From an uncultured bacterium (lineage in GTDB: Bacteria > Elusimicrobiota > Elusimicrobia > Elusimicrobiales > Elusimicrobiaceae): a stretch of DNA of 51,002 bases. The stretch is from the NCBI GenBank assembly GCA_949297775.1, contig CASFTM010000015.1, forward strand, positions 1-51,002. Direction: 5' to 3'. Of this stretch, positions 483-7,829 are shown piece by piece. The notes beneath the pieces are model-generated. The model searched no databases, had not been told where the DNA came from, and worked only from the letters and a program-made list of their open reading frames with translations. Positions within the stretch are counted from its first letter, which is position 1. Every line of letters starts with the position of its first letter. The position numbers and the translations under genes were made by a program.

Positions 483-510
483 TTGCGTATGAGCAAAATT
501 TATCAAAAAA
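469..510. promoter_or_regulatory. 18-bp palindrome spanning -10 and start codon
   Basis: The left arm (469-486) and right arm (493-510) are perfect inverted repeats of 18 bp around the loop GTATGA, which contains the first bases of the ATG. If transcription starts at the ATG the left arm is not in the mRNA. The palindrome would then act in DNA, for example as an operator for a dimeric regulator, rather than as an RNA hairpin. It is conserved at 31834 and 40702. Confidence 0.55.
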
Positions 511-1010
511 CCCTTCCGGCGGGGAAAAACGCCGGATTTACGCTAATAGAGCTGTTAGTGGTCGTTTTAATCATTGGTATCCTGGCGGCGGTGGCACTTC
601 CGCAGTACCAGCTGGCGGTGGATAAGGCCCGCTACACGGAACTGCAAACCATCGGGGCCAAACTGCGTGATATGGTGGAGATGTATTATATGGCTAACGG
701 AGAATATCCCACGCAGTGGGCGGATTTGGATATCACTATCCCCGGCTGTAAAGAGGAAGGTTCTCTGTATGATTTGGTTTGCCAAAAAGTCCGCATTGAT
801 TTAAATGCAACCAATTTTAACGGTTGGGACGGCACAACACGTGCTTCCAGTAGTATGCTGGAAGGAAATGCCACCTATGTTTATTATTTTTTACATGCAG
901 GGAATAATTCCACATATGCAGGAAAAACGGAGTGCCAATCCTTAAATAACCGCGGAAAGAAACTTTGCAAAAGCCTTTGCGGAAGCGCCGGCCGCTGTTT
1001 TTTAAATTAA
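489..1010 (+). CDS. type IV prepilin-like protein (T12 cassette 1)
   Basis: This 173-residue prepilin has a 16-residue positively charged leader ending in NAG, cleavage expected before F17 (GFTLIELL), E at mature position 5, and a hydrophobic N-terminal helix of about 22 residues. The C-terminal domain is lineage-specific and carries five to six cysteines, including C-x12-C-K-S-L near the end. An upstream in-frame TTG (483) would add two residues, but ATG 489 fits the promoter geometry. The first ~130 nt are nearly identical to the genes at 31834 and 40702, after which the sequences diverge. It could be a minor pilin, a pseudopilin or a major pilin variant; family assignment is firm, the role is not. 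Confidence 0.9.
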   Translation: MSKIYQKTLPAGKNAGFTLIELLVVVLIIGILAAVALPQYQLAVDKARYTELQTIGAKLRDMVEMYYMANGEYPTQWADLDITIPGCKEEGSLYDLVCQKVRIDLNATNFNGWDGTTRASSSMLEGNATYVYYFLHAGNNSTYAGKTECQSLNNRGKKLCKSLCGSAGRCFLN

Positions 1011-4547: not shown

Positions 4548-5036
4548 TTATGAGCCGATTACATACAAGCTGCCTAATTTGGAATCGCTTAACGCTTCAC
4601 ACAGCCACTTGTATTTTTCCGAGTTGCTGGAACAGGTGAGCAAATCCTTACGTTTTGTGCCGGAATCAAAGACGTAATACATTCTAAAGCAATAGGTGTT
4701 GCTGTAGGAATTATTCCCATCTATACGACAGGCGGAAATATTGTTTGCGGAAAAAGTATAGTGAAATTTTCCAATATTAAAGGAACTGCTGTTGGGGGTG
4801 TCCGCATCAAAAAAAGATACGTCCAGCCCGTTTAATTTCAAGGGGTCTTCGGAGTTGGCGGCGCGGTAGCGTTTGGCAGAATCAAAAATTGCGCGCAGGT
4901 TTGTCAGCGCTTCTATGGCTTCGGCGCGCTGCACCGAGCGGCGGTACTGCGGCATAGCCACCGAAGTTAAAATCGCAATAATCAATACAACAGCTAACAA
5001 TTCAATCAACGTAAAACCGGATTTGATATGGTTCAT
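4548..5036 (-). CDS. type IV prepilin-like protein
   Basis: This 162-residue prepilin has the short leader MNHIKSG, cleavage expected before F8, then TLIELLAVVLIIAILTSVA. The C-terminal domain ends with C-x10-C in the same position as in the other pilin-like genes here. ATG 5036 is chosen over the upstream in-frame ATG 5117 because AAGGAG lies just before it and the leader is then of normal length. It lacks the T12 cassette and has an ordinary promoter. It is divergent from the pilin gene at 5172, so the pair may be co-regulated from the ~135-bp gap. Confidence 0.9.
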   Translation of the reverse strand: MNHIKSGFTLIELLAVVLIIAILTSVAMPQYRRSVQRAEAIEALTNLRAIFDSAKRYRAANSEDPLKLNGLDVSFFDADTPNSSSFNIGKFHYTFSANNISACRIDGNNSYSNTYCFRMYYVFDSGTKRKDLLTCSSNSEKYKWLCEALSDSKLGSLYVIGS

Positions 5037-5058
5037 AAAATCTCCTTGTTCTTTGTAC

Positions 5059-5087
5059 AGTATATCGGTTTTTCGGGGTTTTTTCAA
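5059..5087 (-). promoter_or_regulatory. sigma-70 type promoter of pilin (4548-5036)
   Basis: On the minus strand TTGAAA (5087-5082) and TATACT (5064-5059) are separated by 17 nt, about 25 nt upstream of the ATG. Confidence 0.75.
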
Positions 5088-5111
5088 TATGGAATTTCGT
5101 AGAAAAACTCC

Positions 5112-5139
5112 TTGCAAGCGCTAGAAAAAAGGCTATAAT
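5112..5139 (+). promoter_or_regulatory. sigma-70 type promoter of pilin (5172-5699)
   Basis: TTGCAA (5112-5117) and TATAAT (5134-5139) are separated by 16 nt. AGAGG precedes the ATG at 5172. Confidence 0.7.
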
Positions 5140-5171: not shown

Positions 5172-5699
5172 ATGCACAGTAAATGTATCCGGAAAGGGTT
5201 TACCCTGACAGAATTGATGGCAGTAGTGATTATCGTTTCTATTTTGGCAGGGATAGCAATCGGTTCGTATAAAAAAGCCGTGGAACGCAGTCACTTTGCC
5301 GAAGGCTTGTCGGCTGGGGCTGCCGTGGCGGAAGCGGTCAGCCGGTTTGATTATGAGAACGAAGGCACTTCTTTTGAAACCCGCCGCCCGAAAATTTCGC
5401 AGCTGGATATTGGTTTTGAAAACGACCGTAAGTGTACGCAGTGGACGTCCGATGCGGATTACTGTTTTAAAACCCGCTATTTTGAGGTCATTGTACTGAA
5501 CTCAAATAGAATACAGGTAAACCGCGTTCAGGGAAATTCCTTGAAGGATTATTATTTTTACTTTTATCCGGAATCCAGAAGCCGCACGGCTGAGCAGTGC
5601 TGTTCGCGTTCTCAGTTGGGGGCGGATTTGTGCAAAAATATGGGGTATACTTCCTGCTCCGGTTCCGGCAGTTCGGTGCAGTGCAGCAAGCCGCTATAA
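5172..5699 (+). CDS. type IV prepilin-like protein, divergent
   Basis: A 175-residue prepilin with a basic leader (MHSKCIRKG) and cleavage before F10 in GFTLTELMAVVIIVSILAGIA. The helix is more divergent than in the other copies: the usual ALPQY is replaced by AIGSY, although the E at mature +5 is kept. The C-terminal half is cysteine-rich, with a CC pair and C-K-N-M-G near the end, matching the C-x8-12-C-[KQR] motif of its paralogues. This and the absence of ALPQY suggest a minor pilin or pseudopilin rather than the main subunit, which is inference. Confidence 0.88.
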   Translation: MHSKCIRKGFTLTELMAVVIIVSILAGIAIGSYKKAVERSHFAEGLSAGAAVAEAVSRFDYENEGTSFETRRPKISQLDIGFENDRKCTQWTSDADYCFKTRYFEVIVLNSNRIQVNRVQGNSLKDYYFYFYPESRSRTAEQCCSRSQLGADLCKNMGYTSCSGSGSSVQCSKPL

Positions 5700-5868: not shown

Positions 5869-6137
5869 TAAAAAAACCATAAAGTTTTGGCTTTATGGTC
5901 CGCTTGGCCGTTTTAGACAGGCGGAAGAAAATTTCTTCCCCTGTCCGCCGGTGAATGTCTGGCCGGCTGCAAACTGCTCTGTGGGAGGCCGCCTATGCGG
6001 CGCTTCCGGTTATTTCTTGCTGATCATGTAATGCGCGCCGCTTACGTTTTCGCCGACTTTAACGAGCGCTTCAGCCATTTTTTCCAAAATCTTGGTCATT
6101 TTTTCCTCCTGTTAAAATTATTTTTATTTTCTTTTCT
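5869..6137 (-). ncRNA. candidate small transcript carrying a 29-codon ORF
   Basis: Read on the minus strand, a near-consensus promoter (6172-6144) and a good intrinsic terminator (CCATAAAG with CTTTATGG, then seven Ts, at 5899-5869) delimit a transcript of about 270 nt. It holds a short ORF with an ideal Shine-Dalgarno at the 5' end, then about 110 nt with a strong hairpin at 5945-5916 (14 bp with one bulge). It could be a small-protein mRNA, a regulatory RNA, or both. The plus-strand gap between the pilin and nadB contains no other gene. Confidence 0.55.
6010..6099 (-). CDS. 29-residue amphipathic small protein, function unknown
   Basis: The peptide begins MTKILEKMAEALVKVGENVS and ends in ISKK. 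AGGAGG ends 5 nt before the ATG, the strongest ribosome-binding site in the window, and a TTTACA-17-TATAAT promoter lies upstream. The N-terminal 17 residues have hydrophobic residues spaced as in an amphipathic helix (I4, L5, M8, L12, V13), with acidic and basic residues between them. There is no cysteine, so an Agr-type thiolactone is unlikely. I do not recognise the family. Candidates are a small membrane-associated regulator or a PSM-like peptide; both are speculation. Confidence 0.55.
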   Translation of the reverse strand: MTKILEKMAEALVKVGENVSGAHYMISKK

Positions 6138-6143
6138 TAAAAT

Positions 6144-6172
6144 ATTATACAAATTTTATGAACGGTTGTAAA
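6144..6172 (-). promoter_or_regulatory. near-consensus promoter of the small transcript
   Basis: On the minus strand TTTACA (6172-6167) and TATAAT (6149-6144) are exactly 17 nt apart. Five of six and six of six bases match the sigma-70 consensus. Confidence 0.75.
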
Positions 6173-6269
6173 TTAAGGGGATATATAATAACAAATATAA
6201 AATAAATATGCAAGAAAAATTTAGCTTTTTTTCAAGCTTGGCGGCCCTGTCCTTTTATATAATATAAGC

Positions 6270-7829
6270 ATGAAAGTACTGCATACGGATTGTTTGGTAA
6301 TCGGGGGCGGCATTGCCGGGTGTGTATATGCGCACCAAGCCGCCAAAAAAGGGCTTAAAACGATGCTCTTGTGCTGCGGGGAAATGCCCCAGGCAAACAG
6401 TGATTTGGCCCAAGGGGGGATTGTCTATGAACCCCGCTTGAATATGGACGATTTATTGGCCGACGTCCAAATGGCCACCGCCGGTATGTGCAACGCCGAA
6501 GCGGTAAAAGAAATTTCCGCCGCCGGCTGCAAAGCCGTAGAAGAAGTGTTTTTAAAAGATTTGTCCGTTCCTTTTGACCGCGACGAAAAACATCAACTGC
6601 GCTTTACGCGTGAAGGCGCCCACCGCAAAAACCGCATTATTTATTCCAAAGACACCACCGGCCACGCGATGTTAAACGCCATCCAGGACGCCGTGCGCAA
6701 AAACCCGCAAATCACCGTGCGGGAATTTGCTTCCGCAATTGATTTATTAACCCTTTCGCACAGCTCGCCCGACCCGATGGACCGCTACTATCCGCTGACG
6801 GTATTCGGCGCATACGTTTTGGACAACAAAACGGGAGAAGTGTTTGCCGTCACCGCCAAGAAAACCGTTTTGGCTACCGGAGGAGTGGGGCAGGTCTACC
6901 GCCATACCACCAACGCCGACCATGCCTACGGGCACGGAATTGCTATGGCGTACCGCGTGGGGGCGCGTGTGATGAATATGGAGTTTTTGCAATTCCATCC
7001 CACGGTGTTTGCCAAAGGGAAAAGCTTTCTCTTGTCCGAAGCGCTGCGCGGCGAAGGAGCCATTCTGCGCAACTGCAACGGGGAAGCTTTTATGGCAAAA
7101 TACCACCCGCTCAAAGACTTGGCCCCGCGCGACATCGTGGCCCGCGCCATTGAAGAAGAACGCCTAAAAACTTCCCACGATTGCGTGTATTTGGATATTA
7201 CCGCCAATCCTGCGGAAGAGACCAAAGAACGCTTTCCGGCAATTTACAAAAAATGCTTGGAAGAAGGCTTTGATATGACCAAAGTGCCCGTGCCGGTGGT
7301 GCCAGCGGCGCACTATTTCTGCGGCGGCGTGTACGCCACGCCGGACGGACGCACCAACATTGCGCACCTAAACGCCATTGGCGAAACCGCCTGCACCGGC
7401 TACCACGGGGCAAACCGTTTGGCAAGCACCTCGCTGCTGGAAGCGGTGGCGATGGGGTATTTGTGTGCCGAGTCGGACGCCAAAGAAATCGCCAACGGTT
7501 CTTTCCATATTCCGCAGCCCAAACCGTGGGTGGTGCCGGAAGAAAAGCCGGATTTGAACTTAGTCAAGCAAGACTTGGCCACCCTGCGCAATACGATGTG
7601 GAACTATGTAGGCTTAATCCGCAGCCGCAAGCACTTGGACCGCGCGGAAAAAATTCTGCGCCACCTGCACAACGAAATTGACGTGTTCTATAAAGGAGCG
7701 GCGTTGTGCCAGGAATTGTTGGACCTGCGCAACGGCACGCAGACGGCGCTTTTAATTACTTACGCCGCTTTGAAAAACCGCCATTCGGTGGGGTGCCATT
7801 ACCTGTCGGATGAAGTGAAATCCGCCTAA
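6270..7829 (+). CDS. nadB: L-aspartate oxidase
   Basis: NadB oxidises L-aspartate to iminoaspartate with FAD, the first step of de novo NAD synthesis. The 519-residue protein begins with the dinucleotide-binding motif GGGIAGCVYA and keeps SDLAQGGI, ATGGVGQVY, the substrate region FLQFHPT, SEALRGEGAIL, AHYFCGGV and GANRLASTSLLE, followed by the C-terminal helical domain. TATAAT (6258-6263) ends 6 nt before the ATG with no Shine-Dalgarno, so the mRNA is probably leaderless. No nadA or nadC is adjacent; the NAD synthetase lies at 45746. The active-site loop reads REGAHRKNRII where many NadB proteins have EGGHS, a modest variation. Confidence 0.93.
   Translation: MKVLHTDCLVIGGGIAGCVYAHQAAKKGLKTMLLCCGEMPQANSDLAQGGIVYEPRLNMDDLLADVQMATAGMCNAEAVKEISAAGCKAVEEVFLKDLSVPFDRDEKHQLRFTREGAHRKNRIIYSKDTTGHAMLNAIQDAVRKNPQITVREFASAIDLLTLSHSSPDPMDRYYPLTVFGAYVLDNKTGEVFAVTAKKTVLATGGVGQVYRHTTNADHAYGHGIAMAYRVGARVMNMEFLQFHPTVFAKGKSFLLSEALRGEGAILRNCNGEAFMAKYHPLKDLAPRDIVARAIEEERLKTSHDCVYLDITANPAEETKERFPAIYKKCLEEGFDMTKVPVPVVPAAHYFCGGVYATPDGRTNIAHLNAIGETACTGYHGANRLASTSLLEAVAMGYLCAESDAKEIANGSFHIPQPKPWVVPEEKPDLNLVKQDLATLRNTMWNYVGLIRSRKHLDRAEKILRHLHNEIDVFYKGAALCQELLDLRNGTQTALLITYAALKNRHSVGCHYLSDEVKSA

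Follow-up and report, generated by a model that had tools for sequence, protein, structure and literature searches.

A probable genus-restricted small-protein gene with a predicted translational brake and a structured 3' UTR in Elusimicrobiota

Introduction

Annotation usually misses small proteins under about 50 residues, and short structured transcripts that encode such proteins can be compared with several described systems. RNAIII of Staphylococcus aureus, which encodes delta-hemolysin, carries several mRNA-binding hairpins and belongs to the agr locus, while RNA thermometers and other leaders that sequester the Shine-Dalgarno sequence offer a more general comparison. The type I toxin mRNAs (Fst/RNAI, AapA1, BsrG, Hok) encode membrane-associated toxins countered by antisense RNA antitoxins, and some of them hide the Shine-Dalgarno sequence by intramolecular pairing. 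In the VcdRP system of Vibrio cholerae, VcdR base-pairs with mRNAs and the 29-residue VcdP binds citrate synthase (PMC8672173).

The unit described here lies in a 51-kb stretch of DNA, the whole of which is called the window below, from a genus that is probably Candidatus Avelusimicrobium (Elusimicrobiales). It appears nearest in kind to dual-function RNAs such as VcdRP, among which its membership is putative: compared by description and not by sequence, both have a short transcript, a 29-residue protein and a further RNA part, but the RNA part is here a three-way junction that can go while the peptide stays. As in RNAIII, a structured RNA encodes a short peptide that is helical and amphipathic, whereas RNAIII is about twice as long and its hairpins and the agr locus are without counterpart here. 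Like the type I toxins it encodes a small peptide, although a charged one, at a single fixed locus and with no conserved antisense promoter. The pairing of UUCUCC with GGAGAA in its leader recalls the Shine-Dalgarno-sequestering leaders, from which it differs by a competing hairpin (GAUAAG/CUUAUC) in one of its two sequence types, type A, and by the loss of the pairing in the subclade of the window. A literature search of papers on the genus, by title and abstract, returned no such small protein or RNA for this animal-gut lineage.

Results

Layout of the unit

The unit runs on the minus strand from window position 6172 to 5870 and comprises a promoter, an AGGAGG and an ORF of 29 codons, followed by a folded 3' part that ends in a terminator (Table 1). 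The AGGAGG, ORF and terminator noted in the first-pass annotation are all present, and the promoter that it had described as near-consensus is among the three sigma-70 sites scoring 11/12 or more in the whole window; its two hexamers are separated by a 17-nt spacer. In 26/32 units a TG-extended distal promoter precedes the proximal -10 by about 31-35 nt, and comparison shows the tandem promoters, as predicted from sequence, to be conserved among relatives. The predicted transcript of 268 nt folds better than 200/200 dinucleotide shuffles (z = -3.2), and the unit is single copy within its own genome.

Table 1. Window coordinates of the unit and of its divergent neighbour
Feature	Position	Strand	Sequence or structure	Remarks
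Distal promoter	6185..6213	-	TTGCAT (6213-6208), 17 nt, TATTAT (6190-6185) with extended -10 TG (6193-6192)	Tandem with proximal promoter
Proximal promoter, -35	6167..6172	-	TTTACA	11/12 consensus matches together with -10
Proximal promoter, -10	6144..6149	-	TATAAT	Present in 32/32 extracted units
Shine-Dalgarno	6105..6110	-	AGGAGG	GGAGA in most relatives
ORF, 29 codons plus stop	6010..6099	-	MTKILEKMAEALVKVGENVSGAHYMISKK; ATG 6099-6097, codons to 6013, TAA 6012-6010	Homologue search, profile search, dN/dS
Three-way junction	5907..5977	-		RNA models R1/R2, compensatory changes
P1 of junction	5977-5971/5913-5907	-	One A-G mismatch	
P2 of junction	5967-5963/5951-5947	-		
P3 of junction	5946-5934/5928-5915	-		
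Intrinsic terminator	5870..5901	-	Stem 5901-5874, then T run	
nadB (presumed L-aspartate oxidase)	6270..7829	+		Divergent neighbour outside the transcript; conserved context

Distribution and genomic context

An initial set of 61 genomes yielded the peptide in 18, all of the same genus, and a later profile search over 341 genomes of the phylum was positive in 38, again all of one genus, with E below 1e-15; outside the genus these 341 genomes gave no convincing match. Weak profile matches in 24 genomes of other genera (E 0.001 to 0.05) were set aside as chance, being confined to about 12-17 positions and lying in nearly every case within open frames of much greater length. The motif VG[DE]NVxG[AS][HN]Y, run as a DNA pattern against 84,980 species, returned 28 matches in Elusimicrobiota records only, 22 of which stand in records named Elusimicrobia, Elusimicrobiales, Elusimicrobium or Candidatus Avelusimicrobium, while the other six were ascribed to the genus. 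No match to the unit was found in the phages and viral contigs searched.

The unit is divergent from a gene that we take from its sequence to be nadB in 18/18 loci first compared and likewise in further loci inspected by eye; the exception is genome G068 (locus L059), where another ORF follows nadB and the unit survives about 3 kb away. On a nadB tree of 53 proteins, rooted by midpoint only and with G068 still scored as 'absent', genomes with the unit fall to either side of the root and five changes are required to account for the 'absent' label, which fits a history of vertical descent with repeated loss. Since it would have been lost several times within the genus, the unit appears not to be essential. 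In genomes that lack it a prepilin-like gene mostly stands directly after nadB; the four genomes that gave no nadB match (G006, G021, G025, G083) were left undecided.

Three further observations concern the neighbourhood itself. Three ORFs around nadB, at 483-1010 (+), 4548-5117 (-) and 5172-5699 (+), have type IV prepilin-like N-termini (GFTLIELLAVV...). A TATAAT lies only a few bases before the nadB ATG (window 6258-6272, plus strand, and equally in relatives), so that the nadB mRNA may be leaderless or nearly so. The nadB matches of G004, G005, G014, G015, G019, G030, G035, G062 and G064 each contain one in-frame stop inside the matched stretch, which could be the natural end of the gene or result from faulty assembly.

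The peptide

The peptide measures 28-33 residues in the 32 extracted units, the range of the small protein being put at about 28-34, and it follows the consensus [IL]LEKxAEALxKVGENVSGAHY, with A9, G16, N18, G21 and Y24 invariant among 17 representatives. The suggestion that the ORF encodes a small protein was borne out at the codon level, where changes between relatives are mostly synonymous: the median dN/dS is 0.156 over 358 pairs, with pN 0.20 against pS 0.63, and the sister pairs listed differ mostly at synonymous positions, with the exception of L068 and L072 (10 and 10). This predominance of synonymous change marks the peptide as a selected protein, and purifying selection at the amino-acid level is strongly supported by the comparison of codons. 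Length, start, stop and a Shine-Dalgarno sequence at similar spacing are conserved across 32 loci, and the ORF is kept also in genomes without the 3' structure.

The amphipathic character proposed earlier agrees with computational evidence for a helix. For a member of 33 residues AlphaFold2 predicted a single helix that spans residues 7-32 (mean pLDDT 80, pTM 0.40), a model of limited weight given that a helix is an easy prediction for a peptide so short, and the window peptide has a higher hydrophobic moment than its shuffles (p 0.004), although two of nine peptides tested miss 0.05. The peptide carries charged residues and its hydrophobicity is low (mean Eisenberg H about 0.1). No Pfam or NCBIfam family was found for the window peptide at the curated cut-off, one weak match in each database coming from a single other member, and a PDB sequence search with the peptide gave nothing convincing.

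The three-way junction

The 14-bp stem that the first-pass annotation had noted at 5916-5945 is present but is not uninterrupted: it consists of 13 pairs with a bulged G (5922), spans 5946-5915, and belongs as arm P3 to a larger three-way junction (5977-5907). Two sequence types, A and B, share a common layout in which P1 encloses P2 and P3, with zero bases between the latter two. Each type has its own RNA model, R1 for type A matching strongly in 23 genomes and R2 for type B in 12, together 35/38 peptide-bearing genomes, and strong matches to either model are confined to genomes that carry the peptide. The remaining three (G061, G062, G072) keep promoter, leader and peptide but show a plain hairpin where the others carry the junction; because they do so, the peptide would be the core product of the unit.

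P1 of type B occurs in several variants (CAUCC/GGAUG, CAUCU/AGAUG, GCCU/AGGC, GGUUUG/CAGACC), and 8 of 24 type B pairs change on both sides, in 20 cells, a result reached by 0/500 shuffles in a control that ignores relatedness. Compensatory changes are weaker in type A (3 pairs), whose pairs are near-invariant, a conservation too high to speak for or against the fold. Taken over the relatives, comparison shows the predicted 3' three-way junction to be conserved as a fold, with compensatory changes. Dozens of relatives carry both the homologous ORF and the structure, so the unit goes beyond chance. An absence of the two from close relatives, named in the first-pass annotation as a refuting outcome, was not what the comparison showed.

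The two models also match each other's type, and the near-palindromic P3 gives antisense matches that are equally strong; the cross-matches alone therefore cannot prove that types A and B are homologous, for which shared layout and position argue better. Aligning the two types together put P1 in the wrong place, and that alignment was discarded. Weak model matches that fell outside the units were ascribed to chance, two that were inspected (G022, G136) being purine-rich hairpins without such a peptide alongside. Rfam gave no match in the unit at the gathering threshold, the best sub-threshold scores being 18-28 bits against thresholds of 40 or more in a permissive search of the window, one type B locus and another type A locus.

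The leader

In most units a UUCUCC stands upstream of the Shine-Dalgarno sequence and is complementary to GGAGAA over 6-9 nt. An anti-Shine-Dalgarno stretch of at least 6 nt is present in 26/32 leaders, and the complementarity reaches p below 0.05 in 13/32 units taken singly, related species not being independent. Predicted folding buries the Shine-Dalgarno sequence, mainly by the leader, in most of the units with such a stretch; exceptions occur among type A and junction-less units, several type A species having it open or paired elsewhere, and type A leaders can form the competing hairpin GAUAAG/CUUAUC. Pairing with the 3' UTR was considered as well and was predicted in few units only. The leader is most simply read as a translational brake. 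In the unit of the window and in four near relatives (L001-L004, L095) the leader complement is gone and AGGAGG stands instead, and the Shine-Dalgarno sequence of the window is predicted to be 66% open.

Discussion

The explanation that we consider probable is a new small-protein gene, restricted to the genus, in which the leader regulates translation and the 3' UTR is structured; its transcript may possibly serve as a dual-function RNA. Judged on comparative grounds the unit is first of all a small-protein gene, because the peptide is its constant part. The tandem sigma-70 promoters would produce a short mRNA, monocistronic and about 270 nt long; in most species the leader UUCUCC would pair with GGAGAA and restrain translation until the leader refolds, while in the subclade of the window, where the brake is gone, translation should be constitutive and strong. 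The product would be an amphipathic helix in which several polar and small residues are fixed (A9, G16, N18, G21, Y24), and its most likely mode of action is binding, either to a cellular protein or to the membrane on its inner face. The junction and the terminator that follows it in the 3' UTR most likely provide transcript protection or a binding platform, and the 3' UTR may additionally act as an RNA in its own right.

How far that last activity extends separates the preferred reading from one in which the transcript, or a processed junction, base-pairs with mRNAs or binds a protein and so regulates in trans, as RNAIII, SgrS and VcdRP do. The isolated, strongly promoted and terminated unit and the linkage of the structured 3' domain to the ORF in 35/38 genomes are consistent with such a role, but three genomes dropped the junction and kept the peptide, and P2 and P3 are paired, with no long conserved single-stranded seed observed besides the short junction strands. 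An RNA chaperone is usual, though not obligatory, for dual-function RNAs in enterobacteria, and a search for Hfq and CsrA found no recognisable homologue of either in the 97% complete genome. VcdRP likewise combines a 29-residue protein with an RNA function (PMC8672173), and on balance we regard regulation in trans as possible, if unlikely. Somewhat more doubtful is the bolder form, a new Elusimicrobiota class of dual-function RNA in which peptide and junction both act, the junction in trans without Hfq or CsrA, and a switchable anti-Shine-Dalgarno gates translation.

The small amphipathic peptide, the structured mRNA and a leader that sequesters the Shine-Dalgarno sequence in most relatives, as in RNAI of pAD1 (PMC8309996), could also indicate a type I toxin-antitoxin system, with a membrane toxin silenced by the folded leader and an antisense RNA. 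That is improbable, as the peptide is charged and weakly hydrophobic, the unit is single copy at a fixed locus with no phage match, the subclade of the window lost the leader lock and strengthened its Shine-Dalgarno sequence, and a search within 32 units for sigma-70 consensus promoters in antisense found no conserved one, only 5/32 having any weak match, mostly at differing places. To a purely non-coding regulatory RNA with an incidental ORF, for which the strong fold and the covariation could be cited, we give very little credence: a dN/dS of about 0.16, the conserved start, stop and Shine-Dalgarno sequence and the presence of the ORF without the fold in some genomes stand against it, and the codon data already contradict it. 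Equally slight is the chance of a leader peptide whose attenuator or riboswitch controls a downstream gene. Short ORF, alternative folds and terminator do occur together in one short RNA, but the ORF has no run of regulatory codons, the next gene downstream (5172-5699, plus strand) is on the opposite strand in the window, and the homologous ORF is convergent too in most of the 18 loci compared, so that no gene is read on from the terminator.

The comparative record of this unit is a clean one, made of repeated losses, one subclade without the predicted brake and three genomes that separate the peptide from the RNA structure. Such a record makes the function of the peptide and that of the RNA separately testable in this lineage.
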